Position numbers and translations under genes: made by a program. Below are positions 1 through 50,206 of a stretch of DNA of 64,000 nt, one piece after another. This DNA is from Oasisia sp. SBJ-2009 (Eukaryota > Annelida > Polychaeta > Sabellida > Siboglinidae). The notes below the pieces were generated by a model, which saw nothing but the letters and a program-made list of their open reading frames with translations, was not told the origin of the DNA and did no database searches. Position 1 is the first letter of the stretch; every line of letters starts with the position of its first letter. The stretch lies in contig OZ024866.1 of the NCBI GenBank assembly GCA_964017155.1, forward strand, positions 20,974,326 to 21,038,325. Reading direction: 5' to 3'.

Positions 1-221
1 CATTCATGACACAGTAGATATTTCTCCACAACGGACGGGTGTGACCTTCAAAGACATGTCAGTTAATGTGTGCGGCTATACGGAAAAAATCCTTAGATGA
101 ATTTCTTTAATATATGCATTGCTTCAATGTAATATATTTTTCGTGAAGATTTGCTCTAATCGGGCAATCTAATTGAATTTGGACTGGTCTGTTTCCGTGA
201 CAACATTGAGCAACAGACAAC

Positions 222-670
222 ATGGACGACGCGTTTGTACTCCATTACAAGGGGAAATTGAGGGAGAAAACAGTTGTGGGAGCAAATGGAGAGTGTTTGT
301 TGTGGACTGGAAGTAGATGTTGTGTACGGGGAGGGGTGGTTGGGAATTATGGGGTGATTTACGTTAAATGTCGCCAACTTCGTGGTCGTGGTTTGCGCTG
401 GAAACTGATGAGAGAGTTCATCGTTTAGCATACATGTTGCACCACAAGGAATGGGAACTTCCGCCAGATATGCACTGTAGCCACTTGTGTCACAATTCTC
501 TATGTATAAATGTCAATCATTTAATACTCGAGACTCCATTTGTGAATGGTAACAGGAAGCAGTGTGCCAGAGAAAACATATGCTTAGGCCATGATCAAGC
601 CCCACCATGCATTTTTTTTAAATACACATACCTTTTAAGAATACGAGGTAATGAAATTAATTGCAATTAG
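222..670 (+). CDS. His-Me finger (HNH) homing-endonuclease-like protein, frame broken by a GA insertion
   Basis: This matches the zinc-binding His-Me finger endonuclease family typified by I-PpoI. The first frame starts at ATG 222 and contains a CLLWTG segment and a YG turn. The second frame continues with VHRLAYML, then SHLCHN-x2-CIN-x2-NHL and a terminal N-x-NRKQC...CLGH. By family analogy the SHLCHN histidine is catalytic, the downstream Asn binds metal, and Cys/His residues bind zinc. The two halves are in different frames: a GAGAGAG run at 410-416 carries one extra GA, and without it the reading joins directly to VHRLAYML. Joined length would be about 149 residues, close to I-PpoI. The gene is therefore either dead or read through a -1 shift. 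It converges on the transposase gene. Confidence 0.8.
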
Positions 671-912
671 CATGTACTTACCATTGCATAAGTCGTTCAT
701 CAGTCTCCATTTCTTTTGATCAGATCTGTCTGTCTGTGCGTCCTTTTGTTGGCCCATACAGCATTGTGTTTGCAGGTTGTGTCAGACAGTGTAGTCTTTC
801 TTCTGTTGATCCGGGTCTGGCTTATTGTGTATTGTCTAATTGTCTGTGTACCCTCTGTGTATTCTCTATTGTAAGTAAATCACTGGGGTGTGACAACTCA
901 GAGTTCTACTAA
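671..912. other. Convergence zone between nuclease and transposase genes
   Basis: This 240-bp stretch separates the two stop codons. It begins at a perfect 12-bp palindrome TAATTGCAATTA (658-669). On the plus strand a TTTGCAG acceptor-like site (to 775) and a GTAAGT donor-like site (871) bracket about 95 bp. No conserved protein is recognisable and no AATAAA is seen for either gene. Confidence 0.4.
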
Positions 913-3024
913 TTATGTGTGAGCTGGATAGGTGTGGTCGTCTACAGATCTGTCACGAAGACAGTAGGGGTGTTCTACCACAGTGCTCTTATTCACCTTG
1001 ACCTTGACCTTGGGTTTTTTCACATTGACCTTGCTCTTGTTTGTTGTTGTCATTTCTTGGTCCAGTTGGCCCTTGCGATAGACTGCCTTCTGTGCAGCCA
1101 CTCTCGTCTGAGCTGAGGCCTCCCTCTGTCGCTTTGCTACGTGAACGGCATCAAACCGTTTCCTCTTGTTTACTAACAAACGTCTCCTCACTGCGCGTCG
1201 GTGCATGTACATTCTGTGATACAATGCCTCGCGTTGTATTTGGGCAGCAACCCGTGCTACCCTGCCACCTCTAGTTATGGGTGCCCTGTTACTCTCCAGC
1301 TTCCTCAGTAGTGAGGCTCCAGTGCCATAATTCAGCCTATCTATGGCTGCACACGCCCTGCCCGTGACATTGCGTGAGAAGTTCACATTCTTGGGAAGCG
1401 ATGCCGATAGCGATCGGTTCAAGCCTTCATTTCGGTTCGTGTTCATGCATAACTTCGTCATCTCCAGAGCGCGAACACCGAGTCTGATGTTAATCAGATT
1501 TCGTAGAGTCGCTCTGTCTGTGTCCGTCATGTTCAGATGTGATATACGCCCTGAGTGTAAGTGCACTGATTTCTTCCACCAGTTCTTGCGTTTGCCACCA
1601 GCGCAGACAACAGAGTAGTACCGGCACTTCTCACACTCCCCACTGTAGCAGTCTAGTGTCGTCTCAATGACGCGAGGCATCAGTGAGGCCACCTTTTTGG
1701 TGTCACCAGCATATAGGTCATTCATCGCACTGTGTATTTGATGGCACCTGGTCTTCACGTCAAGTGAAAACATTTTTCTCTGCTCTTTTCGTATTACTGC
1801 TGTCGTCCCCGGAAACATGCGCTCACTAAACTGCGCCTTGATCATTTTCCTAAACAGCGACGACCCTAAGTGTGTAGTGTCAGCTTGTCGCTCGACATTT
1901 GACGTTGTTCCTGACATCCCTGCCTTCACGCCTTCGGCACCGTGTGCATCTCCATCGGTGACGATGTATGGCAGTCCGACATCTTGTGCCGCAAACTGTC
2001 GCCCTATCTCAGCCCCTGCTGTATACTCGGAGAGAGGCTCACTGGCTGGCAGCGTTGCCGTACAGTTTGCATGGCCTGGACATGTCACATTCACTCCTCG
2101 CCTCCTCAGTGAAGCACCCAGTGTGCATAGCTTGTTCTGGATGCTTATCCCAACTATCTCATTCTGTGCTGTCTGCTTCTCGACAGCAACAGTGATCGCC
2201 TGGCTGGCATTCTGTCCTGCGTGATACGCTCCAGTGATGCACGTGGTGTTATAGCGACTATCAATCGCGATATTTATGGGCGCATTCTCGGGTAGACCAC
2301 GCAGCCGATTTATTTGCTTCACGTCTTCGCGTTTCTTTGCCAGGTCTGCCAATGTCATCGTCGACGTTGTGTCACCAACCTTGTTGGCAGTTTTTTGCAT
2401 GGCGCTGATGCATGGTGATGGCACATTCATACTAGCAAAAATTACTCGGCTCTTTACTATGCCTGTTGTACTCTCCTGTAATCCGACTTGCAGTCCAATG
2501 TTAGGCGCCGCTGGCTTACGGCCTCGCCTTCCTGTCTCCACTTCATGGTACAGTTTATACATCCTTGATGTGTATCCACATTTCTTGCATCGTAGACAAC
2601 ACTGCCAACACAATCCTACTTTGATTTCTCTGCCACACTCGCCTTCCGTCACTGAATGCTCCTCGATGCACTCGTTGTACATCGTTTCCATCCGGCCTTT
2701 GTCGTACAGCCGCATTTCCTCACGTGTATCTTCTCCTCCTCCTTGTAGATACACCGATGTCAAGTCGTCATTGTCGTGATCATCGCGGCGTGGCCGCAGG
2801 ATCTTCGCCTCGCCAGAGTGCCCTTCTGCATCTGGCACCTCGATGAGGACAGCTGGCGTCACTTTTGTGACGTGCGTAAACTCAGCTTGGGTAAGTCTGG
2901 GCATCCATCGGGCTAAACTTTCTCCATCTCCAGTCTGCTCTTCAATGCTGTCCTCTTTCTTGGACGCGTATGCAGGATGACCCTTCCTAAAACCACAGGC
3001 CCTTTCACTCTTTCGCGGAGACAT
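913..3024 (-). CDS. Mutator-like (MULE) DDE transposase, full length 703 aa
   Basis: The protein belongs to the Mutator-like transposase family common in invertebrate genomes. I take ATG 3024 (MSPRKSE...) as the start; the nine open codons upstream begin with TTG. The N-terminus is basic and acidic, followed by a zinc-type cluster C139-x2-C142-x3-C146-x2-C149. The catalytic triad is likely D255 (IDSRYN), D357 or D359 (TDGD) and E533 (NRNEGLNRSL). A second pair C464/C467 sits before the E block, and SLPKNVNFSRNVTGR is a family hallmark. The tail after residue 590 is very rich in Arg and Lys and ends in a KVKVKVNK stretch and a PYCLRDR motif. It would bind element ends and catalyse cut and paste in the nucleus. 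All key residues are present, so this copy could be active. Confidence 0.88.
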   Translation of the reverse strand: MSPRKSERACGFRKGHPAYASKKEDSIEEQTGDGESLARWMPRLTQAEFTHVTKVTPAVLIEVPDAEGHSGEAKILRPRRDDHDNDDLTSVYLQGGGEDTREEMRLYDKGRMETMYNECIEEHSVTEGECGREIKVGLCWQCCLRCKKCGYTSRMYKLYHEVETGRRGRKPAAPNIGLQVGLQESTTGIVKSRVIFASMNVPSPCISAMQKTANKVGDTTSTMTLADLAKKREDVKQINRLRGLPENAPINIAIDSRYNTTCITGAYHAGQNASQAITVAVEKQTAQNEIVGISIQNKLCTLGASLRRRGVNVTCPGHANCTATLPASEPLSEYTAGAEIGRQFAAQDVGLPYIVTDGDAHGAEGVKAGMSGTTSNVERQADTTHLGSSLFRKMIKAQFSERMFPGTTAVIRKEQRKMFSLDVKTRCHQIHSAMNDLYAGDTKKVASLMPRVIETTLDCYSGECEKCRYYSVVCAGGKRKNWWKKSVHLHSGRISHLNMTDTDRATLRNLINIRLGVRALEMTKLCMNTNRNEGLNRSLSASLPKNVNFSRNVTGRACAAIDRLNYGTGASLLRKLESNRAPITRGGRVARVAAQIQREALYHRMYMHRRAVRRRLLVNKRKRFDAVHVAKRQREASAQTRVAAQKAVYRKGQLDQEMTTTNKSKVNVKKPKVKVKVNKSTVVEHPYCLRDRSVDDHTYPAHT

Positions 3025-3895
3025 GATGACAATTGAAATACACACACACAAAATTCCAAATGTGACACACCAGAGTAATCCAACCTAGTGACCAGCTGAC
3101 ACTAAGCTCACATGGCTGCTGCAACTTTAGTGGGGTGGGGTACATAATTTCCTCCAATCAAGCGATTGTTTACACCAGTAGTCCCATGTACAATTGATTT
3201 GTGATTTACAACCCTCCCTGGATGTGATATGTCAAATATTTTGTTTCTACCAGGTGGCATCAAAGCTGGAACAGCCCACTTGTGCATCAGGCCTGCATTC
3301 TGCCCGCATGTCGTTGACATGTACCTGTGCACGACAGGAAACGAGGCTGCTGTGTGAGTGTTTGATGTGGCTTTTTTTCATACCCCATATCAGCACTAAT
3401 ACACATGTGTCTTTGGAGCTGGCTTTAATTCGTGAAGTTTACACCCTTTTTTTAACAAATGGGATCTTTTAAAAGGCAAATGTTCAATATTTTTGGCCAA
3501 AAAACAAGCATAATGCAGAATATTAAAAAAAAATACCAACATTGCACTATAGTGATTAAATTCAGTGTCTTCAAGGTCGTCTTAGTGTAACCAATGTGAC
3601 ACTGGGGTCAGAATTCATATAATATCAACTACTATAATTAATGTATTGTCCCACTAAAGCTCGTATATATACATCATTCATGACACAGTAGATATTTCTC
3701 CACAACGGACGGGTGTGACCTTCAAAGACATGTCAGTTAATGTGTGCGGCTATACGGAAAAAATCCTTAGATGAATTTCTTTAATATATGCATTGCTTCA
3801 ATGTAATATATTTTTCGTGAAGATTTGCTCTATTCGGGCAATCTAATTGAATTTGGACTGGTCTGTTTCCGTGACAACATTGAGCAACAGACAAC
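3025..3895. promoter_or_regulatory. Divergent intergenic region, representative of all units
   Basis: This region lies between the transposase start and the next unit's nuclease start, so it must hold both promoters if the genes are expressed. A TATATATA box at 3664-3671 is well placed for a nuclease transcript starting near the CATTCATGACAC motif. Two perfect palindromes, CTTTTAAAAG (3466-3475) and TTTTTGGCCAAAAA (3490-3503), are kept in the units. The last 400 bp are AT-rich. The same layout recurs in each unit. Confidence 0.4.
3108..3320 (-). other. Conserved small open frame upstream of the transposase (70 codons)
   Basis: An ATG-started frame (ATG at 3320, stop at 3108) reads towards the transposase and ends about 85 bp before its start codon. 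It contains PPGRNKIFDISHPGR and ends in PTKVAAAM. It stays open in every unit, with only C/S and Y/D changes. Copies are so similar that openness alone proves little. I do not recognise the family. It could be an upstream exon or reading frame of the transposase mRNA, or chance. Confidence 0.25.
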
Positions 3896-4344
3896 ATGGA
3901 CGACGCGTTTGTACTCCATTACAAGGGGAAATTGAGGGAGAAAACAGTTGTGGCAGCAAATGGAGAGTGTTTGTTGTGGACTGGAAGTAGATGTTGTGTA
4001 CGGGGAGGGGTGGTTGGGAATTATGGGGTGATTTACGTTAAATGTCGCCAACTTCGTGGTCGTGGTTTGCGCTGGAAACTGATGAGAGAGTTCATCGTTT
4101 AGCATACATGTTGCACCACAAGGAATGGGAACTTCCGCCAGATATGCACTGTAGCCACTTGTGTCACAATTCTCTATGTATAAATGTCAATCATTTAATA
4201 CTCGAGACTCCATTTGTGAATGGTAACAGGAAGCAGTGTGCCAGAGAAAACATATGCTTAGGCCATGATCAAGCCCCACCATGCATTTTTTTTAAATACA
4301 CATACCTTTTAAGAATACGAGGTAATGAAATTAATTGCAATTAG
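3896..4344 (+). CDS. His-Me nuclease-like gene, unit 2, same GA frameshift
   Basis: This is a copy of the unit 1 nuclease with one Gly-to-Ala change near residue 21. The zinc and His-Me motifs are intact in the second frame. The GAGAGAG run has the same extra GA, and the end keeps 8 T so the second frame runs on to NCN. Confidence 0.75.
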
Positions 4345-4693
4345 CATGTACTTACCATTGCATAAGTCGTTCATCAGTCTCCATTTCTTTTGATCAGATC
4401 TGTCTGTCTGTGCGTCCTTTTGTTGGCCCATACAGCGTTGTGTTTGCAGGTTGTGTCAGACAGTGTAGTCTTTCTTCTGTTGATCCGGGTCTGGCTTATT
4501 GTGTATTGTCTAATTGTCTGTGTACCCTCTGTGTATTCTCTATTGTAAGTAAATCACTGGGGTGTGACAACTCAGAGTTCTACTAATTATGTGTGAGCTG
4601 GATAGGTGTGGTCGTCTACAGATCTGTCACGAAGACAGTAGGGGTGTTCTACCACAGTGCTCTTATTCACCTTGACCTTGACCTTGGGTTTTT

Positions 4694-6685
4694 TCACATT
4701 GACCTTGCTCTTGTTGTTGTCATTTCTTGGTCCAGTTGGCCCTTGCGATAGATTGCCTTCTGTGCAGCCACTCTCGTCTGAGCTGAGGCCTCCCTCTGTC
4801 GCTTTGCTGCGTGAACGGCATCAAACCGTTTCCTCTTGTTTACTAACAAACGTCTCCTCACTGCGCGTCGGTGCATGTACATTCTGTGATACAATGCCTC
4901 GCGTTGTATTTGCGCAGCAACCCGTGCTACCCTGCCACCTCTAGTTATGGGTGCCCTGTTACTTTCCAGCTTCCTCAGTAGTGAGGCTCCAGTGCCATAA
5001 TTCAGCCTATCTATGGCTGCACACGCCCTGCCCGTGACATTGCGTGAGAAGTTCACATTCTTGGGAAGCGATGCCGATAGCGATCGGTTCAAGCCTTCAT
5101 TTCGGTTCGTGTTCATGCATAACTTCGTCATCTCCAGAGCGCGAACTCCGAGTCTGATGTTAATCAGATTTCGTAGAGTCGCTCTGTCTGTGTCCGTCAT
5201 GTTCAGATGTGATATACGCCCTGAGTGTAAGTGCACTGATTTCTTCCACCAGTTCTTGCGTTTGCCACCAGCGCAGACAACAGAGTAGTACCGGCACTTC
5301 TCACACTCCCCACTGTAGCAGTCTAGTGTCGTCTCAATGACGCGAGGCATCAGTGAGGCCACCTTTTTGGTGTCACCAGCATATAGGTCATTCATCACAC
5401 TGTGTATTTGATGGCACCTGGTCTTCACGTCAAGTGAAAACATTTTTCTCTGCTCTTTTCGTATTACTGCTGTCGTCCCCGGAAACATGCGCTCACTAAA
5501 CTGCTCCTTGATCATTTTCCTAAACAGCGACGACCCTAAGTGTGTAGTGTCAGCTTGTCGCTCGACATTTGACGTTGTTCCTGACATCCCTGCCTTCACG
5601 CCTTCGGCACCGTGTGCATCTCCATCGGTGACGATGTATGGCAGTCCGACATCTTGTGCCGCAAACTGTCGCCCTATCTCAGCCCCTGCTGTATACTCGG
5701 AGAGAGGCTCACTGGCTGGCAGCGTTGCCGTACAGTTTGCATGGCCTGGACATGTCACATTCACTCCTCGCCTCCTCAGTGAAGCACCCAGTGTGCATAG
5801 CTTGTTCTGGATGCTTATCCCAACTATCTCATTCTGTGCTGTCTGCTTCTCGACAGCAACAGTGATCGCCTGGCTGGCATTCTGTCCTGCGTGATACGCT
5901 CCAGTGATGCACGTGGTGTTATAGAGACTATCAATCGCGATATTTATGGGCGCATTCTCGGGTAGACCACGCAGCCGATTTATTTGCTTCACGTCTTCGC
6001 GTTTCTTTGCCAATGTCATCGTCGACGTTGTGTCACCAACCTTGTTGGCAGTTTTTTGCATGGCGCTGATGCATGGTGATGGCACATTCATACTAGCAAA
6101 AATTACTCGGCTCTTTACTATGCCTGTTGTACTCTCCTGTAATCCGACTTGCAGTCCAATGTTAGGCGCCGCTGGCTTACGGCCTCGCCTTCCTGTCTCC
6201 ACTTCATGGTACAGTTTATACATCCTTGATGTGTATCCACATTTCTTGCATCGTAGACAACACTGCCAACACAATCCTACTTTGATTTCTCTGCCACACT
6301 CGCCTTCCGTCACTGAATGCTCCTCGATGCACTCGTTGTACATCGTTTCCATCCGGCCTTTGTCGTACAGCCGCATTTCCTCACGTGTATCTTCTCCTCC
6401 TCCTTGTAGATACACCGATGTCAAGTCGTCATTGTCGTGATCATCGCGGCGTGGCCGCAGGATCTTCGCCTCGCCAGAGTGCCCTTCTGCATCTGGCACC
6501 TCGATGAGGCCAGCTGGCGTCACTTTTGTGACGTGCGTAAACTCAGCTTGGGTAAGTCTGGGCATCCATCGGGCTAAACTTTCTCCATCTCCAGTCTGCT
6601 CTTCAATGCTGTCCTCTTTCTTGGACGCGTATGCAGGATGACCCTTCCTAAAACCACAGGCCCTTTCACTCTTTCGCGGAGACAT
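4694..6685 (-). CDS. MULE transposase, unit 2, altered C-terminus (663 aa)
   Basis: Relative to unit 1, three residues (DLA) are missing from TLADLAKK, the SRY next to the first Asp is SLY, and there are A-to-E, A-to-V and V-to-G changes. All DDE residues and Cys clusters remain. A 4-bp loss in the GTT tract near 4712 replaces the last 40 or so residues with RARSM, removing the basic KVKVKVNK tail and PYCLRDR motif. The core may still act; the missing tail probably lowers DNA binding or nuclear import. Confidence 0.85.
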   Translation of the reverse strand: MSPRKSERACGFRKGHPAYASKKEDSIEEQTGDGESLARWMPRLTQAEFTHVTKVTPAGLIEVPDAEGHSGEAKILRPRRDDHDNDDLTSVYLQGGGEDTREEMRLYDKGRMETMYNECIEEHSVTEGECGREIKVGLCWQCCLRCKKCGYTSRMYKLYHEVETGRRGRKPAAPNIGLQVGLQESTTGIVKSRVIFASMNVPSPCISAMQKTANKVGDTTSTMTLAKKREDVKQINRLRGLPENAPINIAIDSLYNTTCITGAYHAGQNASQAITVAVEKQTAQNEIVGISIQNKLCTLGASLRRRGVNVTCPGHANCTATLPASEPLSEYTAGAEIGRQFAAQDVGLPYIVTDGDAHGAEGVKAGMSGTTSNVERQADTTHLGSSLFRKMIKEQFSERMFPGTTAVIRKEQRKMFSLDVKTRCHQIHSVMNDLYAGDTKKVASLMPRVIETTLDCYSGECEKCRYYSVVCAGGKRKNWWKKSVHLHSGRISHLNMTDTDRATLRNLINIRLGVRALEMTKLCMNTNRNEGLNRSLSASLPKNVNFSRNVTGRACAAIDRLNYGTGASLLRKLESNRAPITRGGRVARVAAQIQREALYHRMYMHRRAVRRRLLVNKRKRFDAVHAAKRQREASAQTRVAAQKAIYRKGQLDQEMTTTRARSM

Positions 6686-7556
6686 GATGACAATTGAAAT
6701 ACACACACACAAAATTCCAAATGTGACACACCAGAGTAATCCAACCTAGTGACCAGCTGACACTAAGCTCACATGGCTGCTGCAACTTTAGTGGGGTGGG
6801 GTACATAATTTCCTCCAATCAAGCGATTGTTTACACCAGTAGTCCCATGTACAATTGATTTGTGATTTACAACCCTCCCTGGATGTGATATGTCAAATAT
6901 TTTGTTTCTACCAGGTGGCATCAAAGCTGGAACAGCCCACTTGTGCATCAGGCCTGCATTCTGCCCGCTCGTCGTTGACATGTACCTGTGCACGACAGGA
7001 AACGAGGCTGCTGTGTGAGTGTTTGATGTAACTTTTTTGCATACCCCATATCAGCACTAATACACATGTGTCTTTGGAGCTGGCTTTAATTCGTGAAGTT
7101 TACACCCTTTTTTTAACAAATGGGATCTTTTAAAAGGCAAATGTTCAATATTTTTGGCCAAAAAACAAGCATAATGCAGAATATTAAAAAAAAATACCAA
7201 CATTGCACTATAGTGATTAAATTCAGTGTCTTCAAGGTCGTCTTAGTGTAACCAATGTGACACTGGGGTCAGAATTCATATAATATCAACTACTATAATT
7301 AATGTATTGTCCCACTAAAGCTCGTATATATACATCATTCATGACACAGTAGATATTTCTCCACAACGGACGGGTGTGACCTTCAAAGACATGTCAGTTA
7401 ATGTGTGCGGCTATACGGAAAAAATCCTTAGATGAATTTCTTTAATATATGCATTGCTTCAATGTAATATATTTTTCGTGAAGATTTGCTCTAATCGGGC
7501 AATCTAATTGAATTTGGACTGGTCTGTTTCCGTGACAACATTGAGCAACAGACAAC

Positions 7557-7957
7557 ATGGACGACGCGTTTGTACTCCATTACAAGGGGAAATTGAGGGA
7601 GAAAACAGTTGTGGCAGCAAATGGAGAGTGTTTGTTGTGGACTGGAAGTAGATGTTGTGTACGGGGAGGGGTGGTTGGGAATTATGGGGTGATTTACGTT
7701 AAATGTCGCCAACTTCGTGGTCGTGGTTTGCGCTGGAAACTGATGAGAGAGTTCATCGTTTAGCATACATGTTGCACCACAAGGAATGGGAACTTCCGCC
7801 AGATATGCACTGTAGCCACTTGTGTCACAATTCTCTATGTATAAATGTCAATCATTTAATACTCGAGACTCCATTTGTGAATGGTAACAGGAGGCAGTGT
7901 GCCAGAGAAAACATATGCTTAGGCCATGATCAAGCCCCACCATGCATTTTTTTTTAA
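7557..7957 (+). CDS. His-Me nuclease-like gene, unit 3, same GA frameshift
   Basis: The motifs match the other copies, with NRRQC in place of NRKQC. A ninth T in the terminal run ends the second frame at CIFF, 16 codons earlier than in types A and B. The conserved CLGH and Cys residues are still included, so this end may be the natural one. Confidence 0.75.
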
Positions 7958-8355
7958 ATACACATACCTTTTAAGAATACGAGGTAATGAAATTAATTGC
8001 AATTAGCATGTACTTACCATTGCATAAGTCGTTCATCAGTCTCCATTTCTTTTGATCAGATCTGTCTGTCTGTGCGTCCTTTTGTTGGCCCATACAGCAT
8101 TGTGTTTGCAGGTTGTGTCAGACAGTGTAGTCTTTCTTCTGTTGATCCGGGTCTGGCTTATTGTGTATTGTCTAATTGTCTGTGTACCCTCTGTGTATTC
8201 TCTATTGTAAGTAAATCACTGGGGTGTGACAACTCAGAGTTCTACTAATTATGTGTGAGCTGGATAGGTGTGGTCGTCTACAGATCTGTCACGAAGACAG
8301 TAGGGGTGTTCTACCACAGTGCTCTTATTCACCTTGACCTTGACCTTGGGTTTTT

Positions 8356-10352
8356 TCACATTGACCTTGCTCTTGTTGTCATTTCTTGGTCCAGTTGGCC
8401 CTTGCGATAGATTGCCTTCTGTGCAGCCACTCTCGTCTGAGCTGAGGCCTCCCTCTGTCGCTTTGCTGCGTGAACGGCATCAAACCGTTTCCTCTTGTTT
8501 ACTAACAAACGTCTCCTCACTGCGCGTCGGTGCATGTACATTCTGTGATACAATGCCTCGCGTTGTATTTGCGCAGCAACCCGTGCTACCCTGCCACCTC
8601 TAGTTATGGGTGCCCTGTTACTTTCCAGCTTCCTCAGTAGTGAGGCTCCAGTGCCATAATTCAGCCTATCTATGGCTGCACACGCCCTCCCGTGACATTG
8701 CGTGAGAAGTTCACATTCTTGGGAAGCGATGCCGATAGCGATCGGTTCAAGCCTTCATTTCGGTTCGTGTTCATGCATAACTTCGTCATCTCCAGAGCGC
8801 GAACACCGAGTCTGATGTTAATCAGATTTCGTAGAGTCGCTCTGTCTGTGTCCGTCATGTTCAGATGTGATATACGCCCTGAGTGTAAGTGCACTGATTT
8901 CTTCCACCAGTTCTTGCGTTTGCCACCAGCGCAGACAACAGAGTAGTACCGGCACTTCTCACACTCCCCACTGTAGCAGTCTAGTGTCGTCTCAATGACG
9001 CGAGGCATCAGTGAGGCCACCTTTTTGGTGTCACCAGCATATAGGTCATTCATCGCACTGTGTATTTGATGGCACCTGGTCTTCACGTCAAGTGAAAACA
9101 TTTTTCTCTGCTCTTTTCGTATTACTGCTGTCGTCCCCGGAAACATGCGCTCACTAAACTGCGCCTTGATCATTTTCCTAAACAGCGACGACCCTAAGTG
9201 TGTAGTGTCAGCTTGTCGCTCGACATTTGACGTTGTTCCTGACATCCCTGCCTTCACGCCTTCGGCACCGTGTGCATCTCCATCGGTGACGATGTATGGC
9301 AGTCCGACATCTTGTGCCGCAAACTGTCGCCCTATCTCAGCCCCTGCTGTATACTCGGAGAGAGGCTCACTGGCTGGCAGCGTTGCCGTACAGTTTGCAT
9401 GGCCTGGACATGTCACATTCACTCCTCGCCTCCTCAGTGAAGCACCCAGTGTGCATAGCTTGTTCTGGATGCTTATCCCAACTATCTCATTCTGTGCTGT
9501 CTGCTTCTCGACAGCAACAGTGATCGCCTGGCTGGCATTCTGTCCTGCGTGATACGCTCCAGTGATGCACGTGGTGTTATAGCGACTATCAATCGCGATA
9601 TTTATGGGCGCATTCTCGGGTAGACCACGCAGCCGATTTATTTGCTTCACGTCTTCGCGTTTCTTTGCCAGGTCTGCCAATGTCATCGTCGACGTTGTGT
9701 CACCAACCTTGTTGGCAGTTTTTTGCATGGCGCTGATGCATGGTGATGGCACATTCATACTAGCAAAAATTACTCGGCTCTTTACTATGCCTGTTGTACT
9801 CTCCTGTAATCCGACTTGCAGTCCAATGTTAGGCGCCGCTGGCTTACGGCCTCGCCTTCCTGTCTCCACTTCATGGTACAGTTTATACATCCTTGATGTG
9901 TATCCACATTTCTTGCATCGTAGACAACACTGCCAACACAATCCTACTTTGATTTCTCTGCCACACTCGCCTTCCGTCACTGAATGCTCCTCGATGCACT
10001 CGTTGTACATCGTTTCCATCCGGCCTTTGTCGTACAGCCGCATTTCCTCACGTGTATCTTCTCCTCCTCCTTGTAGATACACCGATGTCAAGTCGTCATT
10101 GTCGTGATCATCGCGGCGTGGCCGCAGGATCTTCGCCTCGCCAGAGTGCCCTTCTGCATCTGGCACCTCGATGAGGCCAGCTGGCGTCACTTTTGTGACG
10201 TGCGTAAACTCAGCTTGGGTAAGTCTGGGCATCCATCGGGCTAAACTTTCTCCATCTCCAGTCTGCTCTTCAATGCTGTCCTCTTTCTTGGACGCGTATG
10301 CAGGATGACCCTTCCTAAAACCACAGGCCCTTTCACTCTTTCGCGGAGACAT
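8356..10352 (-). pseudogene. MULE transposase, unit 3, frameshifted
   Basis: The frame runs 560 residues from ATG 10352 through all three DDE residues. It then shifts at SRNVTG because one base is missing from the CCCTGCCC run (about 8687) and stops at 8670. The rest of the gene stays readable in the original frame and ends in RARSM at 8356. The truncated product would keep the catalytic core but lose the 100-residue basic tail. Confidence 0.85.
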
Positions 10353-11223
10353 GATGACAATTGAAATACACACACACAAAATTCCAAATGTGACACACCA
10401 GAGTAATCCAACCTAGTGACCAGCTGACACTAAGCTCACATGGCTGCTGCAACTTTAGTGGGGTGGGGTACATAATTTCCTCCAATCAAGCGATTGTTTA
10501 CACCAGTAGTCCCATGTACAATTGATTTGTGATTTACAACCCTCCCTGGATGTGATATGTCAAATATTTTGTTTCTACCAGGTGGCATCAAAGCTGGAAC
10601 AGCCCACTTGTGCATCAGGCCTGCATTCTGCCCGCTCGTCGTTGACATGTACCTGTGCACGACAGGAAACGAGGCTGCTGTGTGAGTGTTTGATGTAACT
10701 TTTTTGCATACCCCATATCAGCACTAATACACATGTGTCTTTGGAGCTGGCTTTAATTCGTGAAGTTTACACCCTTTTTTTAACAAATGGGATCTTTTAA
10801 AAGGCAAATGTTCAATATTTTTGGCCAAAAAACAAGCATAATGCAGAATATTAAAAAAAAATACCAACATTGCACTATAGTGATTAAATTCAGTGTCTTC
10901 AAGGTCGTCTTAGTGTAACCAATGTGACACTGGGGTCAGAATTCATATAATATCAACTACTATAATTAATGTATTGTCCCACTAAAGCTCGTATATATAC
11001 ATCATTCATGACACAGTAGATATTTCTCCACAACGGACGGGTGTGACCTTCAAAGACATGTCAGTTAATGTGTGCGGCTATACGGAAAAAATCCTTAGAT
11101 GAATTTCTTTAATATATGCATTGCTTCAATGTAATATATTTTTCGTGAAGATTTGCTCTAATCGGGCAATCTAATTGAATTTGGACTGGTCTGTTTCCGT
11201 GACAACATTGAGCAACAGACAAC

Positions 11224-11624
11224 ATGGACGACGCGTTTGTACTCCATTACAAGGGGAAATTGAGGGAGAAAACAGTTGTGGCAGCAAATGGAGAGTGTTT
11301 GTTGTGGACTGGAAGTAGATGTTGTGTACGGGGAGGGGTGGTTGGGAATTATGGGGTGATTTACGTTAAATGTCGCCAACTTCGTGGTCGTGGTTTGCGC
11401 TGGAAACTGATGAGAGAGTTCATCGTTTAGCATACATGTTGCACCACAAGGAATGGGAACTTCCGCCAGATATGCACTGTAGCCACTTGTGTCACAATTC
11501 TCTATGTATAAATGTCAATCATTTAATACTCGAGACTCCATTTGTGAATGGTAACAGGAGGCAGTGTGCCAGAGAAAACATATGCTTAGGCCATGATCAA
11601 GCCCCACCATGCATTTTTTTTTAA
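11224..11624 (+). CDS. His-Me nuclease-like gene, unit 4, same GA frameshift
   Basis: This is identical in translated sequence to the unit 3 copy: Ala variant, NRRQC, 9-T run and early stop at CIFF. The GA expansion is present. Confidence 0.75.
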
Positions 11625-38511: not shown

Positions 38512-38520
38512 TTTAATTAA
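38512..38520. other. Duplication junction with TTT filler beside a palindrome
   Basis: Sequence left of 38511 is transposase core; sequence right of 38515 is the AATTAATTGC leading into the palindrome TAATTGCAATTA. Three T that belong to neither parent lie between. The same join occurs in unit 12 (43359-43363), so it arose once and was then copied. Short filler is typical of end joining at a double-strand break. Confidence 0.85.
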
Positions 38521-38772
38521 TTGCAATTAGCATGTACTTACCATTGCATAAGTCGTTCATCAGTCTCCATTTCTTTTGATCAGATCTGTCTGTCTGTGCG
38601 TCCTTTTGTTGGCCCATACAGCATTGTGTTTGCAGGTTGTGTCAGACAGTGTAGTCTTTCTTCTGTTGATCCGGGTCTGGCTTATTGTGTATTGTCTAAT
38701 TGTCTGTGTACCCTCTGTGTATTCTCTATTGCAAGTAAATCACTGGGGTGTGACAACTCAGAGTTCTACTAA

Positions 38773-40875: not shown

Positions 40876-41746
40876 GATGACAATTGAAATACACACACAC
40901 AAAATTCCAAATGTGACACACCAGAGTAATCCAACCTAGTGACCAGCTGACACTAAGCTCACATGGCTGCTGCAACTTTAGTGGGGTGGGGTACATAATT
41001 TCCTCCAATCAAGCGATTGTTTACACCAGTAGTCCCATGTACAATTGATTTGTGATTTACAACCCTCCCTGGATGTGATATGTCAAATATTTTGTTTCTA
41101 CCAGGTGGCATCAAAGCTGGAACAGCCCACTTGTGCATCAGGCCTGCATTCTGCCCGCATGTCGTTGACATGTACCTGTGCACGACAGGAAACGAGGCTG
41201 CTGTGTGAGTGTTTGATGTGGCTTTTTTTCATACCCCATATCAGCACTAATACACATGTGTCTTTGGAGCTGGCTTTAATTCGTGAAGTTTACACCCTTT
41301 TTTTAACAAATGGGATCTTTTAAAAGGCAAATGTTCAATATTTTTGGCCAAAAAACAAGCATAATGCAGAATATTAAAAAAAAATACCAACATTGCACTA
41401 TAGTGATTAAATTCAGTGTCTTCAAGGTCGTCTTAGTGTAACCAATGTGACACTGGGGTCAGAATTCATATAATATCAACTACTATAATTAATGTATTGT
41501 CCCACTAAAGCTCGTATATATACATCATTCATGACACAGTAGATATTTCTCCACAACGGACGGGTGTGACCTTCAAAGACATGTCAGTTAATGTGTGCGG
41601 CTATACGGAAAAAATCCTTAGATGAATTTCTTTAATATATGCATTGCTTCAATGTAATATATTTTTCGTGAAGATTTGCTCTAATCGGGCAATCTAATTG
41701 AATTTGGACTGGTCTGTTTCCGTGACAACATTGAGCAACAGACAAC

Positions 41747-42147
41747 ATGGACGACGCGTTTGTACTCCATTACAAGGGGAAATTGAGGGAGAAAACAGTT
41801 GTGGCAGCAAATGGAGAGTGTTTGTTGTGGACTGGAAGTAGATGTTGTGTACGGGGAGGGGTGGTTGGGAATTATGGGGTGATTTACGTTAAATGTCGCC
41901 AACTTCGTGGTCGTGGTTTGCGCTGGAAACTGATGAGAGAGTTCATCGTTTAGCATACATGTTGCACCACAAGGAATGGGAACTTCCGCCAGATATGCAC
42001 TGTAGCCACTTGTGTCACAATTCTCTATGTATAAATGTCAATCATTTAATACTCGAGACTCCATTTGTGAATGGTAACAGGAGGCAGTGTGCCAGAGAAA
42101 ACATATGCTTAGGCCATGATCAAGCCCCACCATGCATTTTTTTTTAA
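41747..42147 (+). CDS. His-Me nuclease-like gene, unit 12, same GA frameshift
   Basis: This is a C/D-type copy with NRRQC and the 9-T stop. The GA expansion is present. Confidence 0.75.
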
Positions 42148-42545
42148 ATACACATACCTTTTAAGAATACGAGGTAATGAAATTAATTGCAATTAGCATG
42201 TACTTACCATTGCATAAGTCGTTCATCAGTCTCCATTTCTTTTGATCAGATCTGTCTGTCTGTGCGTCCTTTTGTTGGCCCATACAGCATTGTGTTTGCA
42301 GGTTGTGTCAGACAGTGTAGTCTTTCTTCTGTTGATCCGGGTCTGGCTTATTGTGTATTGTCTAATTGTCTGTGTACCCTCTGTGTATTCTCTATTGTAA
42401 GTAAATCACTGGGGTGTGACAACTCAGAGTTCTACTAATTATGTGTGAGCTGGATAGGTGTGGTCGTCTACAGATCTGTCACGAAGACAGTAGGGGTGTT
42501 CTACCACAGTGCTCTTATTCACCTTGACCTTGACCTTGGTTTTTT

Positions 42546-43359
42546 TCACATTGACCTTGCTCTTGTTGTCATTTCTTGGTCCAGTTGGCCCTTGCGATAG
42601 ATTGCCTTCTGTGCAGCCACTCTCGTCTGAGCTGAGGCCTCCCTCTGTCGCTTTGCTGCGTGAACGGCATCAAACCGTTTCCTCTTGTTTACTAACAAAC
42701 GTCTCCTCACTGCGCGTCGGTGCATGTACATTCTGTGATACAATGCCTCGCGTTGTATTTGCGCAGCAACCCGTGCTACCCTGCCACCTCTAGTTATGGG
42801 TGCCCTGTTACTTTCCAGCTTCCTCAGTAGTGAGGCTCCAGTGCCATAATTCAGCCTATCTATGGCTGCACACGCCCTGCCCGTGACATTGCGTGAGAAG
42901 TTCACATTCTTGGGAAGCGATGCCGATAGCGATCGGTTCAAGCCTTCATTTCGGTTCGTGTTCATGCATAACTTCGTCATCTCCAGAGCGCGAACACCGA
43001 GTCTGATGTTAATCAGATTTCGTAGAGTCGCTCTGTCTGTGTCCGTCATGTTCAGATGTGATATACGCCCTGAGTGTAAGTGCACTGATTTCTTCCACCA
43101 GTTCTTGCGTTTGCCACCAGCGCAGACAACAGAGTAGTACCGGCACTTCTCACACTCCCCACTGTAGCAGTCTAGTGTCGTCTCAATGACGCGAGGCATC
43201 AGTGAGGCCACCTTTTTGGTGTCACCAGCATATAGGTCATTCATCACACTGTGTATTTGATGGCACCTGGTCTTCACGTCAAGTGAAAACATTTTTCTCT
43301 GCTCTTTTCGTATTACTGCTGTCGTCCCCGGAAACATGCGCTCACTAAACTGCTCCTTG
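42546..43359 (-). pseudogene. Truncated C-terminal transposase fragment, unit 12
   Basis: This fragment matches that of unit 11 but has the short GTT tract, so it ends in RARSM after 263 residues from the first Met. It keeps the Glu block without the Asp residues. Confidence 0.85.
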
Positions 43360-43620
43360 TTTAATTAATTGCAATTAGCATGTACTTACCATTGCATAAG
43401 TCGTTCATCAGTCTCCATTTCTTTTGATCAGATCTGTCTGTCTGTGCGTCCTTTTGTTGGCCCATACAGCATTGTGTTTGCAGGTTGTGTCAGACAGTGT
43501 AGTCTTTCTTCTGTTGATCCGGGTCTGGCTTATTGTGTATTGTCTAATTGTCTGTGTACCCTCTGTGTATTCTCTATTGCAAGTAAATCACTGGGGTGTG
43601 ACAACTCAGAGTTCTACTAA

Positions 43621-45723
43621 TTATGTGTGAGCTGGATAGGTGTGGTCGTCTACAGATCTGTCACGAAGACAGTAGGGGTGTTCTACCACAGTGCTCTTAT
43701 TCACCTTGACCTTGACCTTGGGTTTTTTCACATTGACCTTGCTCTTGTTTGTTGTTGTCATTTCTTGGTCCAGTTGGCCCTTGCGATAGACTGCCTTCTG
43801 TGCAGCCACTCTCGTCTGAGCTGAGGCCTCCCTCTGTCGCTTTGCTGCGTGAACGGCATCAAACCGTTTCCTCTTGTTTCCTAACAAACGTCTCCTCACT
43901 GCGCGTCGGTGCATGTACATTCTGTGATACAATGCCTCGCGTTGTATTTGCGCAGCAACCCGTGCTACCCTGCCACCTCTAGTTATGGGTGCCCTGTTAC
44001 TTTCCAGCTTCCTCAGTAGTGAGGCTCCAGTGCCATAATTCAGCCTATCTATGGCTGCACACGCCCTGCCCGTGACATTGCGTGAGAAGTTCACATTCTT
44101 GGGAAGCGATGCCGATAGCGATCGGTTCAAGCCTTCATTTCGGTTCGTGTTCATGCATAACTTCGTCATCTCCAGAGCGCGAACTCCGAGTCTGATGTTA
44201 ATCAGATTTCGTAGAGTCGCTCTGTCTGTGTCCGTCATGTTCAGATGTGATATACGCCCTGAGTGTAAGTGCACTGATTTCTTCCACCAGTTCTTGCGTT
44301 TGCCACCAGCGCAGACAACAGAGTAGTACCGGCACTTCTCACACTCCCCACTGTAGCAGTCTAGTGTCGTCTCAATGACGCGAGGCATCAGTGAGGCCAC
44401 CTTTTTGGTGTCACCAGCATATAGGTCATTCATCACACTGTGTATTTGATGGCACCTGGTCTTCACGTCAAGTGAAAACATTTTTCTCTGCTCTTTTCGT
44501 ATTACTGCTGTCGTCCCCGGAAACATGCGCTCACTAAACTGCTCCTTGATCATTTTCCTAAACAGCGACGACCCTAAGTGTGTAGTGTCAGCTTGTCGCT
44601 CGACATTTGACGTTGTTCCTGACATCCCTGCCTTCACGCCTTCGGCACCGTGTGCATCTCCATCGGTGACGATGTATGGCAGTCCGACATCTTGTGCCGC
44701 AAACTGTCGCCCTATCTCAGCCCCTGCTGTATACTCGGAGAGAGGCTCACTGGCTGGCAGCGTTGCCGTACAGTTTGCATGGCCTGGACATGTCACATTC
44801 ACTCCTCGCCTCCTCAGTGAAGCACCCAGTGTGCATAGCTTGTTCTGGATGCTTATCCCAACTATCTCATTCTGTGCTGTCTGCTTCTCGACAGCAACAG
44901 TGATCGCCTGGCTGGCATTCTGTCCTGCGTGATACGCTCCAGTGATGCACGTGGTGTTATAGAGACTATCAATCGCGATATTTATGGGCGCATTCTCGGG
45001 TAGACCACGCAGCCGATTTATTTGCTTCACGTCTTCGCGTTTCTTTGCCAATGTCATCGTCGACGTTGTGTCACCAACCTTGTTGGCAGTTTTTTGCATG
45101 GCGCTGATGCATGGTGATGGCACATTCATACTAGCAAAAATTACTCGGCTCTTTACTATGCCTGTTGTACTCTCCTGTAATCCGACTTGCAGTCCAATGT
45201 TAGGCGCCGCTGGCTTACGGCCTCGCCTTCCTGTCTCCACTTCATGGTACAGTTTATACATCCTTGATGTGTATCCACATTTCTTGCATCGTAGACAACA
45301 CTGCCAACACAATCCTACTTTGATTTCTCTGCCACACTCGCCTTCCGTCACTGAATGCTCCTCGATGCACTCGTTGTACATCGTTTCCATCCGGCCTTTG
45401 TCGTACAGCCGCATTTCCTCACGTGTATCTTCTCCTCCTCCTTGTAGATACACCGATGTCAAGTCGTCATTGTCGTGATCATCGCGGCGTGGCCGCAGGA
45501 TCTTCGCCTCGCCAGAGTGCCCTTCTGCATCTGGCACCTCGATGAGGCCAGCTGGCGTCACTTTTGTGACGTGCGTAAACTCAGCTTGGGTAAGTCTGGG
45601 CATCCATCGGGCTAAACTTTCTCCATCTCCAGTCTGCTCTTCAATGCTGTCCTCTTTCTTGGACGCGTATGCAGGATGACCCTTCCTAAAACCACAGGCC
45701 CTTTCACTCTTTCGCGGAGACAT
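43621..45723 (-). CDS. MULE transposase, unit 12, full length 700 aa
   Basis: It is the same recombinant type as unit 11 with one private Val-to-Gly change (RRRLLGNK) in the basic tail. The catalytic residues are intact. Confidence 0.88.
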   Translation of the reverse strand: MSPRKSERACGFRKGHPAYASKKEDSIEEQTGDGESLARWMPRLTQAEFTHVTKVTPAGLIEVPDAEGHSGEAKILRPRRDDHDNDDLTSVYLQGGGEDTREEMRLYDKGRMETMYNECIEEHSVTEGECGREIKVGLCWQCCLRCKKCGYTSRMYKLYHEVETGRRGRKPAAPNIGLQVGLQESTTGIVKSRVIFASMNVPSPCISAMQKTANKVGDTTSTMTLAKKREDVKQINRLRGLPENAPINIAIDSLYNTTCITGAYHAGQNASQAITVAVEKQTAQNEIVGISIQNKLCTLGASLRRRGVNVTCPGHANCTATLPASEPLSEYTAGAEIGRQFAAQDVGLPYIVTDGDAHGAEGVKAGMSGTTSNVERQADTTHLGSSLFRKMIKEQFSERMFPGTTAVIRKEQRKMFSLDVKTRCHQIHSVMNDLYAGDTKKVASLMPRVIETTLDCYSGECEKCRYYSVVCAGGKRKNWWKKSVHLHSGRISHLNMTDTDRATLRNLINIRLGVRALEMTKLCMNTNRNEGLNRSLSASLPKNVNFSRNVTGRACAAIDRLNYGTGASLLRKLESNRAPITRGGRVARVAAQIQREALYHRMYMHRRAVRRRLLGNKRKRFDAVHAAKRQREASAQTRVAAQKAVYRKGQLDQEMTTTNKSKVNVKKPKVKVKVNKSTVVEHPYCLRDRSVDDHTYPAHT

Positions 45724-46594
45724 GATGACAATTGAAATACACACACACAAAATTCCAAATGTGACACACCAGAGTAATCCAACCTAGTGACCAGCTGACA
45801 CTAAGCTCACATGGCTGCTGCAACTTTAGTGGGGTGGGGTACATAATTTCCTCCAATCAAGCGATTGTTTACACCAGTAGTCCCATGTACAATTGATTTG
45901 TGATTTACAACCCTCCCTGGATGTGATATGTCAAATATTTTGTTTCTACCAGGTGGCATCAAAGCTGGAACAGCCCACTTGTGCATCAGGCCTGCATTCT
46001 GCCCGCTCGTCGTTGACATGTACCTGTGCACGACAGGAAACGAGGCTGCTGTGTGAGTGTTTGATGTAACTTTTTTGCATACCCCATATCAGCACTAATA
46101 CACATGTGTCTTTGGAGCTGGCTTTAATTCGTGAAGTTTACACCCTTTTTTTAACAAATGGGATCTTTTAAAAGGCAAATGTTCAATATTTTTGGCCAAA
46201 AAACAAGCATAATGCAGAATATTAAAAAAAAATACCAACATTGCACTATAGTGATTAAATTCAGTGTCTTCAAGGTCGTCTTAGTGTAACCAATGTGACA
46301 CTGGGGTCAGAATTCATATAATATCAACTACTATAATTAATGTATTGTCCCACTAAAGCTCGTATATATACATCATTCATGACACAGTAGATATTTCTCC
46401 ACAACGGACGGGTGTGACCTTCAAAGACATGTCAGTTAATGTGTGCGGCTATACGGAAAAAATCCTTAGATGAATTTCTTTAATATATGCATTGCTTCAA
46501 TGTAATATATTTTTCGTGAAGATTTGCTCTAATCGGGCAATCTAATTGAATTTGGACTGGTCTGTTTCCGTGACAACATTGAGCAACAGACAAC

Positions 46595-46995
46595 ATGGAC
46601 GACGCGTTTGTACTCCATTACAAGGGGAAATTGAGGGAGAAAACAGTTGTGGCAGCAAATGGAGAGTGTTTGTTGTGGACTGGAAGTAGATGTTGTGTAC
46701 GGGGAGGGGTGGTTGGGAATTATGGGGTGATTTACGTTAAATGTCGCCAACTTCGTGGTCGTGGTTTGCGCTGGAAACTGATGAGAGAGTTCATCGTTTA
46801 GCATACATGTTGCACCACAAGGAATGGGAACTTCCGCCAGATATGCACTGTAGCCACTTGTGTCACAATTCTCTATGTATAAATGTCAATCATTTAATAC
46901 TCGAGACTCCATTTGTGAATGGTAACAGGAGGCAGTGTGCCAGAGAAAACATATGCTTAGGCCATGATCAAGCCCCACCATGCATTTTTTTTTAA
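46595..46995 (+). CDS. His-Me nuclease-like gene, unit 13, same GA frameshift
   Basis: The copy has NRRQC and the 9-T end. The GA expansion is present even in this diverged edge unit, placing it before array formation. Confidence 0.75.
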
Positions 46996-47393
46996 ATACA
47001 CATACCTTTTAAGAATACGAGGTAATGAAATTAATTGCAATTAGCATGTACTTACCATTGCATAAGTCGTTCATCAGTCTCCATTTCTTTTGATCAGATC
47101 TGTCTGTCTGTGCGTCCTTTTGTTGGCCCATACAGCATTGTGTTTGCAGGTTGTGTCAGACAGTGTAGTCTTTCTTCTGTTGATCCGGGTCTGGCTTATT
47201 GTGTATTGTCTAATTGTCTGTGTACCCTCGGTGTATTCTCTATTGTAAGTAAATCACTGGGGTGTGACAACTCAGAGTTCTACTAATTATGTGTGAGCTG
47301 GATAGGTGTGGTCGTCTACAGATCTGTCACGAAGACAGTAGGGGTGTTCTACCACAGTGCTCTTATTCACCTTGACCTTGACCTTGGGTTTTT

Positions 47394-49385
47394 TCACATT
47401 GACCTTGCTCTTGTTGTTGTCATTTCTTGGTCCAGTTGGCCCTTGCGATAGATTGCCTTCTGTGCAGCCACTCTCGTCTGAGCTGAGGCCTCCCTCTGTC
47501 GCTTTGCTGCGTGAACGGCATCAAACCGTTTCCTCTTGTTTACTAACAAACGTCTCCTCACTGCGCGTCGGTGCATGTACATTCTGTGATACAATGCCTC
47601 GCGTTGTATTTGCGCAGCAACCCGTGCTACCCTGCCACCTCTAGTTATGGGTGCCCTGTTACTTTCCAGCTTCCTCAGTAGTGAGGCTCCAGTGCCATAA
47701 TTCAGCCTATCTATGGCTGCACACGCCCTGCCCGTGACATTGCGTGAGAAGTTCACATTCTTGGGAAGCGATGCCGATAGCGATCGGTTCAAGCCTTCAT
47801 TTCGGTTCGTGTTCATGCATAACTTCGTCATCTCCAGAGCGCGAACACCGAGTCTGATGTTAATCAGATTTCGTAGAGTCGCTCTGTCTGTGTCCGTCAT
47901 GTTCAGATGTGATATACGCCCTGAGTGTAAGTGCACTGATTTCTTCCACCAGTTCTTGCGTTTGCCACCAGCGCAGACAACAGAGTAGTACCGGCACTTC
48001 TCACACTCCCCACTGTAGCAGTCTAGTGTCGTCTCAATGACGCGAGGCATCAGTGAGGCCACCTTTTTGGTGTCACCAGCATATAGGTCATTCATCACAC
48101 TGTGTATTTGATGGCACCTGGTCTTCACGTCAAGTGAAAACATTTTTCTCTGCTCTTTTCGTATTACTGCTGTCGTCCCCGGAAACATGCGCTCACTAAA
48201 CTGCTCCTTGATCATTTTCCTAAACAGCGACGACCCTAAGTGTGTAGTGTCAGCTTGTCGCTCGACATTTGACGTTGTTCCTGACATCCCTGCCTTCACG
48301 CCTTCGGCACCGTGTGCATCTCCATCGGTGACGATGTATCGCAGTCCGACATCTTGTGCCGCAAACTGTCGCCCTATCTCAGCCCCTGCTGTATACTCGG
48401 AGAGAGGCTCACTGGCTGGCAGCGTTGCCGTACAGTTTGCATGGCCTGGACATGTCACATTCACTCCTCGCCTCCTCAGTGAAGCACCCAGTGTACATAG
48501 CTTGTTCTGGATGCTTATCCCAACTATCTCATTCTGTGCTGTCTGCTTATCGACAGCAACAGTGATCGCCTGGCTGGCATTCTGTCCTGCGTGATACGCT
48601 CCAGTGATGCACGTGGTGTTATAGAGACTATCAATCGCGATATTTATGGGCGCATTCTCGGGTAGACCACGCAGCCGATTTATTTGCTTCACGTCTTCGC
48701 GTTTCTTTGCCAATGTCATCGTCGACGTTGTGTCACCAACCTTGTTGGCAGTTTTTTGCATGGCGCTGATGCATGGTGATCGCACATTCATACTAACAAA
48801 AATTACTCGGCTCTTTACTATGCCTGTTGTACTCTCCTGTAATCCGACTTGCAGTCCAATGTTAGGCGCCGCTGGCTTACGGCCTCGCCTTCCTGTCTCC
48901 ACTTCATGGTACAGTTTATACATCCTTGATGTGTATCCACATTTCTTGCATCGTAGACAACACTGCCAACACAATCCTACTTTGATTTCTCTGCCACACT
49001 CGCCTTCCGTCACTGAATGCTCCTCGATGCACTCGTTGTACATCGTTTCCATCCGGCCTTTGTCGTACAGCCGCATTTCCTCACGTGTATCTTCTCCTCC
49101 TCTTTGTAGATACACCGATGTCAAGTCGTCATTGTCGTGATCATCGCGGCGTGGCCGCAGGATCTTCGCCTCGCCAGAGTGCCCTTCTGCATCTGGCACC
49201 TCGATGAGGCCAGCTGGCGTCACTTTTGTGACGTGCGTAAACTCAGCTTGGGTAAGTCTGGGCATCCATCGGGCTAAACTTTCTCCATCTCCAGTCTGCT
49301 CTTCAATGCTGTCCTCTTTCTTGGACGCGTATGCAGGATGACCCTTCCTAAAACCACAGGCCCTTTCACTCTTTCGCGGAGACAT
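47394..49385 (-). CDS. MULE transposase, unit 13, altered C-terminus (663 aa)
   Basis: This is a type B protein with five private changes: G-to-R in YLQRGGED, A-to-V in FVSMN, P-to-R in NVRSP, E-to-D in AVDKQ and P-to-R in GLRYIVTD. The last is three residues from the TDGD catalytic motif. Catalytic residues remain and the tail is RARSM. Confidence 0.83.
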   Translation of the reverse strand: MSPRKSERACGFRKGHPAYASKKEDSIEEQTGDGESLARWMPRLTQAEFTHVTKVTPAGLIEVPDAEGHSGEAKILRPRRDDHDNDDLTSVYLQRGGEDTREEMRLYDKGRMETMYNECIEEHSVTEGECGREIKVGLCWQCCLRCKKCGYTSRMYKLYHEVETGRRGRKPAAPNIGLQVGLQESTTGIVKSRVIFVSMNVRSPCISAMQKTANKVGDTTSTMTLAKKREDVKQINRLRGLPENAPINIAIDSLYNTTCITGAYHAGQNASQAITVAVDKQTAQNEIVGISIQNKLCTLGASLRRRGVNVTCPGHANCTATLPASEPLSEYTAGAEIGRQFAAQDVGLRYIVTDGDAHGAEGVKAGMSGTTSNVERQADTTHLGSSLFRKMIKEQFSERMFPGTTAVIRKEQRKMFSLDVKTRCHQIHSVMNDLYAGDTKKVASLMPRVIETTLDCYSGECEKCRYYSVVCAGGKRKNWWKKSVHLHSGRISHLNMTDTDRATLRNLINIRLGVRALEMTKLCMNTNRNEGLNRSLSASLPKNVNFSRNVTGRACAAIDRLNYGTGASLLRKLESNRAPITRGGRVARVAAQIQREALYHRMYMHRRAVRRRLLVNKRKRFDAVHAAKRQREASAQTRVAAQKAIYRKGQLDQEMTTTRARSM

Positions 49386-50034
49386 GATGACAATTGAAAT
49401 ACACACACACAAAATTCCAAATGTGACACACCAGAGTAATCCAACCTAGTGACCAGCTGACACTAAGCTCACATGGCTGCTGCAACTTTAGTGGGGTGGG
49501 GTACATAATTTCCTCCAATCAAGCGATTGTTTACACCAGTAGTCCCATGTACAATTGATTTGTGATTTACAACCCTCCCTGGATGTGATATGTCAAATAT
49601 TTTGTTTCTACCAGGTGGCATCAAAGCTGGAACAGCCCACTTGTGCATCAGGCCTGCATTCTGCCCGCATGTCGTTGACATGTACCTGTGCACGACAGGA
49701 AACGAGGCTGCTGTGTGAGTGTTTGATGTGGCTTTTTTTCATACCCCATATCAGCACTAATACACATGTGTCTTTGGAGCTGGCTTTAATTCGTGAAGTT
49801 TACACCCTTTTTTTAACAAATGGGATCTTTTAAAAGGCAAATGTTCAATATTTTTGGCCAAAAAACAAGCATAATGCAGAATATTAAAAAAAATACCAAC
49901 ATTGCACTATAGTGATTAAATTCAGTGTCTTCAAGGTCGTCTTAGTGTAACCAATGTGACACTGGGGTCAGAATTCATATAATATCAACTACTATAATTA
50001 ATGTATTGTCCCACTAAAGCTCGTATATATACAT

Positions 50035-50206
50035 CATTCATGACACAGTAGATATTTCTCCACAACGGACGGGTGTGACCTTCAAAGACATGTCAGTTAA
50101 TGTGTGCGGCTATACGGAAAAAATCCTTAGATGAATTTCTTTAATATATGCATTGCTTCAATGTAATATATTTTTCGTGAAGATTTGCTCTATTCGGGCA
50201 ATCTAT
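50035..50206. mobile_element. Stub of unit 14 and right edge of the array
   Basis: The first 172 bp of a unit (with the TATTCGGG variant) run up to GGGCAATCTA and then leave the array. The next bases, TTTGG, also occur 6 bp further on in a normal unit, so the join may have used microhomology or a small deletion. The stub ends before the nuclease ATG. Confidence 0.9.

Follow-up and report, generated by a model that had tools for sequence, protein, structure and literature searches.

The closest described relatives of the array reported here are the KolobokP elements of animals, Kolobok DNA transposons that combine a DDD/E transposase with a convergent His-Me nuclease of I-PpoI type (Kojima & Bao 2022, PMC9587614). 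According to the main text of that paper, LTDRs, about 450 or 660 bp long, stand on either side of a part termed INT, and the elements possess short TIRs with RR..YY ends and produce target duplications of 3-5 bp. Besides solo LTDRs, the published forms include multimers of the structure (LTDR-INT)n-LTDR and, in small number, INT-INT fusions, the latter ascribed to the excision of an LTDR with a micro-deletion of 3 or 4 bp (PMC9587614). The nuclease has been proposed to cut within or at the ends of the LTDRs, and the models put forward by Kojima & Bao include circular intermediates and induced unequal crossover (PMC9587614).

The window analysed here, i.e. the whole stretch of 64,000 nucleotides at C13:20974326-21038325 (contig OZ024866.1, assembly GCA_964017155.1) of the 764-Mb genome of Oasisia sp. 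SBJ-2009, contains a long array of such sequences (Table 1). An earlier note, made from the letters of this DNA, had described a transposon-derived, protein-coding macrosatellite that couples a MULE transposase to a His-Me nuclease, and had treated the pairing of these enzymes in a tandem array as undescribed. The pair is not new, as the KolobokP lineage is published and its multimers are known (main text of PMC9587614); the macrosatellite itself is supported, with unequal exchange as its likely mode of growth. Judged from its nuclease, its zinc-finger pattern, its LTDRs and TIRs, and its target duplications of 4-5 bp, the element of the array is to be classified as KolobokP. The best explanation of the locus is very probably that LTDR-less INTs of KolobokP were multiplied by host recombination, with neither LTDRs nor a working nuclease in cis.

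Table 1. Features of the window; positions are those of the 64,000-nucleotide stretch.
Feature	Position	Strand	Remarks
LTDR-less KolobokP INT array	1..50207	-	partial INT 1-171 and 13 INT units
LTDR at the right end of the array, 463 bp	50208..50670	-	95.9% identity with the L010 LTDR (454 bp)
Two long units (~4.85 kb)	36051..45750	.	one internal partial duplication and junction common to both
Higher-order block A B C D	1..14046; second copy 22005-36050	.	first unit cut by window edge; ungapped, offset 22004
Full-length transposase, 703 aa	913..3024	-	PF20700
Full-length transposase, 703 aa	15582..17693	-	
Full-length transposase, 703 aa	22917..25028	-	
Full-length transposase, 700 aa	38773..40875	-	
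Full-length transposase, 700 aa	43621..45723	-	
Transposase, 663 aa	4694..6685; also 19363-21354, 26698-28689, 47394-49385	-	C-terminus shortened
Shortened transposase, 560 aa	8670..10352; also 30674-32356	-	D, D, E retained
Truncated transposase, 490 aa	12547..14019; also 34551-36023	-	without catalytic E
His-Me (I-PpoI-like) nuclease pseudogene	222..667	+	frame broken; downstream frame matches PF05551, E=1.5e-11
12 more nuclease pseudogene copies (plus strand)	starts 3896, 7557, 11224, 14891, 18565, 22226, 25900, 29561, 33228, 36895, 41747, 46595		

Mapping of the INT bears out at least 13 head-to-tail units without spacers. The array ends at 50207 (blastn with a single-unit query spans 1-50209), and 13 units plus a partial one are a minimum, given that the array runs up to the left edge of the window. 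The INTs are bounded at about 170, 3844, 7505 and further such positions rather than at the start of the transposase, and the element does not end at 50206 as first thought: it continues with the closing LTDR, which in transposase orientation starts with GGGTAGATACCACC and finishes with GGTATGTCCCCA. Regular units measure 3,661-3,674 bp, the two long ones 4,852 and 4,848 bp, and window INTs are 97.6-99.4% identical (blastn) to the INT of the single copy L010. None of the 13 INT-INT junctions in the window holds an LTDR, and no LTDR match occurs inside the array at E<=1. A search for LTDR ends within the window alone yielded nothing above shuffles (best 10/14, with 59 of 60 shuffles reaching 10 or 11), because the LTDR is absent from the unit, as was seen later from single copies. 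The array presents what defines a satellite or macrosatellite, i.e. head-to-tail units that are homogenised by recombination and form higher-order repeats. To the right of the array, the window also carries a reverse-transcriptase ORF of a LINE-like element (RVT_1, 648 aa, minus strand, 56298-58244), flanked on both sides by a 41-bp minisatellite (54514-56201 and 58308-58430), and a 27-bp minisatellite of 22.9 copies at 61945-62561 with one frame open per strand.

The nature of the unit becomes apparent from copies elsewhere in the genome, whose numbers are lower bounds (63 of 473 candidates were scored). Statistics on single copies refer to nine of the 14 loci L009-L022, with L016, L018, L020, L021 and L022 omitted as truncated or multimeric. 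All nine complete single copies have the architecture LTDR-INT-LTDR, with LTDRs of 433-459 bp and an INT of 3,684-3,698 bp, and all nine are bordered at their outer ends by target duplications of 4-5 bp in flanks read by eye (AGGC, ATCG, AGGCT, GTTT, ATCC, ACAC, AGAT, AAAT and ATAT). Compared by eye, the LTDR termini (GGGTAGATACCACCA, and GGGGACATACCACCA when inverted) match at 13 of 15 positions, in keeping with short TIRs of the form 5'-RR..YY-3'. The transposase frame of the single copies is open over 727-730 codons, with L019 lacking the exact string of the second-D motif, and the nuclease keeps an open frame across its His-Cys box in 9/9, with a lost start codon in L015 and an altered, shorter C-terminus in L011. 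The window unit aligns nearly end to end with the INT of these copies, and the array therefore consists of INT only, the LTDRs being missing between units. Individual units within the array have no target duplications of their own, whose presence the earlier note had named as fatal to its interpretation; it is the single copies that possess them.

The transposase of the array is encoded on the minus strand and matches PF20700 (E 2e-49). Inspection of all 13 start codons gave proteins of 703 aa (three), 700 aa (two), 663 aa (four), 560 aa (two) and 490 aa (two), which upholds the five full-length transposases reported before; the long units additionally carry C-terminal transposase fragments of 300 and 263 aa. 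Along the protein follow AIDS, LC..TCPGHANC (CCHC), TDGDA, DTTH, CYSGECEKC..C and NRNEGLN, and in 26 aligned sequences the three acidic residues, the DTTH histidine, and the cysteines and histidine of the fingers are invariant or at least 90% conserved. The arrangement is that of a KolobokP transposase: DDD/E, a C/DxxH motif, a CCHC finger after the first D and a zinc finger before the last E. A protein search found 89 relatives, one of which (P0077) has both transposase and nuclease domains, and a PDB search with the transposase profile gave no match. MuDR/MULE elements generate target-site duplications of about 8-11 bp, and membership in that group was rejected on the 4-5 bp found in 9/9 single copies. 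What remains of the MULE label is the name that Pfam gives to PF20700 ('Mutator'), which is a name only, whereas duplication length, LTDRs and zinc finger fit Kolobok. Over the first 490 codons the 13 array copies vary at 3 synonymous and 10 non-synonymous codons (0.77 non-synonymous expected), i.e. there is no sign of selection, on few sites. The nine single copies, with 13 synonymous and 29 non-synonymous variable codons, are likewise near neutral, and this test consequently does not set the array apart.

The nuclease domain reported for the unit is indeed present, but its frame is broken at the identical place in 13/13 window units. In orientation it is convergent to the transposase, and it is a His-Me nuclease of I-PpoI type, as in KolobokP. 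The match to solved structures of I-PpoI is weak but aligned (E 0.0038 for the relative P0090, 0.16 for the window piece) and retains S97, H98, H110, E114 and N119 (residue numbers after Kojima & Bao 2022, PMC9587614). A protein search found 185 relatives of the nuclease. The 89 transposase matches and the best 120 of these 185 nuclease matches have five exact contig sizes in common (jitter null 1.7, P 0.025), which by itself is a weak test of linkage between the two enzymes. DNA relatives of the array were absent from the viral contig and genome contig databases.

The order of unit types within the array suggests exchange of several units at a time. Both copies of the block A B C D agree without gaps over 14,046 bases with 4 mismatches (99.97%), and the pair A B occurs once more at 14047-21381, matching 21382-28716 at an offset of 7335 (7,335 bases, 2 mismatches). 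Unit types differ from each other by 6-18 substitutions and copies of the same type by 0-3; the unit at 45751 reads as a mosaic of two types with private changes. The higher-order blocks and the mosaic unit point to multi-unit exchange between tandem copies, for which unequal exchange is the likely process. The INT-INT junction is 4-5 bp shorter than the sum of both INT ends, a loss that fits the LTDR excision described in the main text of Kojima & Bao (PMC9587614). At up to 2 mismatches the genome contains 23 INT-INT junctions (13 in the window, one directly upstream and nine elsewhere) and 44 INT-LTDR junctions, with none in reversed controls. A second INT-INT junction type of the same family, found at five of these 23 sites, has a single base changed and may represent either a separate fusion or a substitution.

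Upstream of the window, at C13:20921809-20958917, lies a canonical (LTDR-INT)9 run, which passes into an INT-INT junction identical in sequence to the commonest junction of the window. The nuclease is unbroken in all nine LTDR-bearing units of this run and broken, as in the window, in the LTDR-less partial INT beyond the junction. In a midpoint-rooted tree of 31 INTs, including 11 window units (both long units were omitted), the window units form one clade with moderate support (0.73), and their sister is the last upstream unit beside the junction; the units of C13 as a whole cluster together, apart from the single copies (support 0.90). Window units diverge from each other by 0.29% on average and single copies by 0.61%, compared with 1.18% between the two groups. 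These data suggest that both clusters on C13 derive from one insertion. Contrary to a simple history of this kind, the closing LTDR is less similar to that of L010 (95.9%) than are the LTDRs of the upstream run (98.0-99.1%), and about 9 kb of other sequence plus an unread stretch between the upstream cluster and the window array leave a single common insertion short of proof.

LTDR-less arrays are not confined to this family. About 15 kb to the right of the closing LTDR, and in opposite orientation, a second KolobokP family opens with an LTDR (83% identical) at C13:21040215-21040654 and continues, in the pieces read (L029, L030, L032), as INT copies without LTDRs between them past C13:21078000. 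Its INT is about 74% identical over the aligned part, dN/dS between the families is 0.13 (L010 against one second-family frame, 638 codons), and all three junctions in L030 are the same. In 3/3 nuclease copies of this family, the 80 residues that precede the box are free of stops. On C6:30448500-30458000 (L033) we found an array of a 2,464-bp INT that lacks approximately positions 1289-2519, with units 99.93-99.96% identical and without LTDR matches over the 9.5 kb that were read; it is a non-autonomous satellite from KolobokP whose internal deletion takes part of the transposase. At C6:43880000-43976366, INT-LTDR junctions are spaced about 3.63 kb apart, or multiples thereof, over some 90 kb, which suggests an extensive array with LTDRs whose unit is slightly shorter.

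A history that accommodates these observations would begin with a KolobokP copy on the chromosome that became an (LTDR-INT)n multimer, such as the one seen in the neighbouring cluster, provided that the two share their insertion. Excision of one LTDR would then have fused two INTs with a loss of 4-5 bp, as the identical junctions suggest, and the LTDR-less run would have expanded by unequal homologous exchange and gene conversion, to judge from the higher-order repeats and the mosaic unit. Every unit read has a single inherited break of the nuclease frame, and 5/13 transposases are still full length. The array now behaves as a macrosatellite, whose internal units, having no transposon ends, should not transpose singly. 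It also seems rather likely, though with less confidence than for the window itself, that KolobokP repeatedly seeds coding macrosatellites: loss of an LTDR from a multimer would lock the core into an array grown by host recombination alone, for which terminal repeats and a working nuclease in cis are unneeded. This genome would have seen such events repeatedly, in two families whose aligned DNA differs by about 26%, with part of the transposase lost at one locus.

Other modes of growth have to be weighed against host recombination. A circle of one or several INTs could have been copied by a rolling-circle mechanism and reintegrated as a concatemer; the near-exact repetition of a 22,004-bp (six-unit) period over 14 kb speaks for such an origin, and circular intermediates are among the models in the main text of Kojima & Bao (PMC9587614). 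However, recombination between units is needed in any case, both for the mosaic at 45751 and for the two-unit repeat contained in the six-unit period, and the contigs of 2.5-5.3 kb in 68 of the 89 transposase relatives, which might be taken for circles, would result from collapsed repeats as well. We regard this origin as unlikely. Even less probable is growth driven by the element's own nuclease, i.e. cleavage followed by break repair templated by a neighbouring copy, with the enzyme supplied in trans. Amplification of this sort had been offered in the earlier note, and it is weakened by the broken nuclease of 13/13 window units and by the lack of LTDRs, the proposed place of the cut, between units. 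In its favour one may cite the many relatives of both proteins (89 for the transposase and 185 for the nuclease), the single copies and the adjoining multimer, whose open nuclease frames could act in trans, and the second-family array with no stop before the box over the 80 residues read in each of three copies.

The array length and its higher-order blocks could also have arisen through mis-assembly of near-identical copies, as blocks that are 99.97% identical over 14 kb and the unread sequence directly beside the window might lead one to suspect. Against this stand the linked variants of the units, which keep a consistent order, and the LTDR-less junctions that recur at other loci and in the second family, and we give an assembly artefact the least credence of the alternatives.

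One chromosome region here displays the stages between a mobile element and a satellite, namely the LTDR multimer, the LTDR-less junction and the higher-order array, and the single insertions elsewhere in the genome represent the starting point of this series. Two parts of the published model are thereby set apart, as this long array lacks LTDRs between units and no unit read in it has an intact nuclease. The model of nuclease-induced unequal crossover becomes testable within one genome, by comparing how arrays change in length when they possess or lack LTDRs and intact nucleases.

Our array shares with KolobokP, as presented in the main text of PMC9587614, the enzyme pair, LTDRs of about 450 bp, TIRs, target duplications, multimers and INT-INT fusions marked by a micro-deletion. 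Of the LTDR-less runs that this main text mentions, LTDR-(INT)4-LTDR is the longest, compared with 13 INTs and a partial one here; the words 'satellite' and 'higher-order' are absent from the main text, and the supplements could list longer runs (PMC9587614). Higher-order repeats, a nuclease broken in every unit and a second family with LTDR-less arrays of its own go beyond the main-text account of KolobokP (PMC9587614). The lineage and its tendency to multimerise are thus already known, and the terminal-repeat-free, nuclease-dead core macrosatellite with higher-order structure, recurrent in one genome, was not found described in the literature searched, the KolobokP supplements aside.

Among protein-coding macrosatellites, D4Z4 and DXZ4 consist of multi-kb tandem units homogenised by recombination, and the window array shares with them such units, reading frames or transcripts, and homogenisation. 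Macrosatellites of the D4Z4/DXZ4 type are not known to be made of entire transposon cores in which transposase genes can be recognised. Tandem arrays of LTR retrotransposons, reportedly including those of Cassandra, keep a terminal repeat between the internal regions, whereas the terminal repeat is lost in the KolobokP array of the window. The resemblance lies in the origin: as in the LTR-retrotransposon arrays of PMC11899658, a mobile element has given rise to a tandem array.
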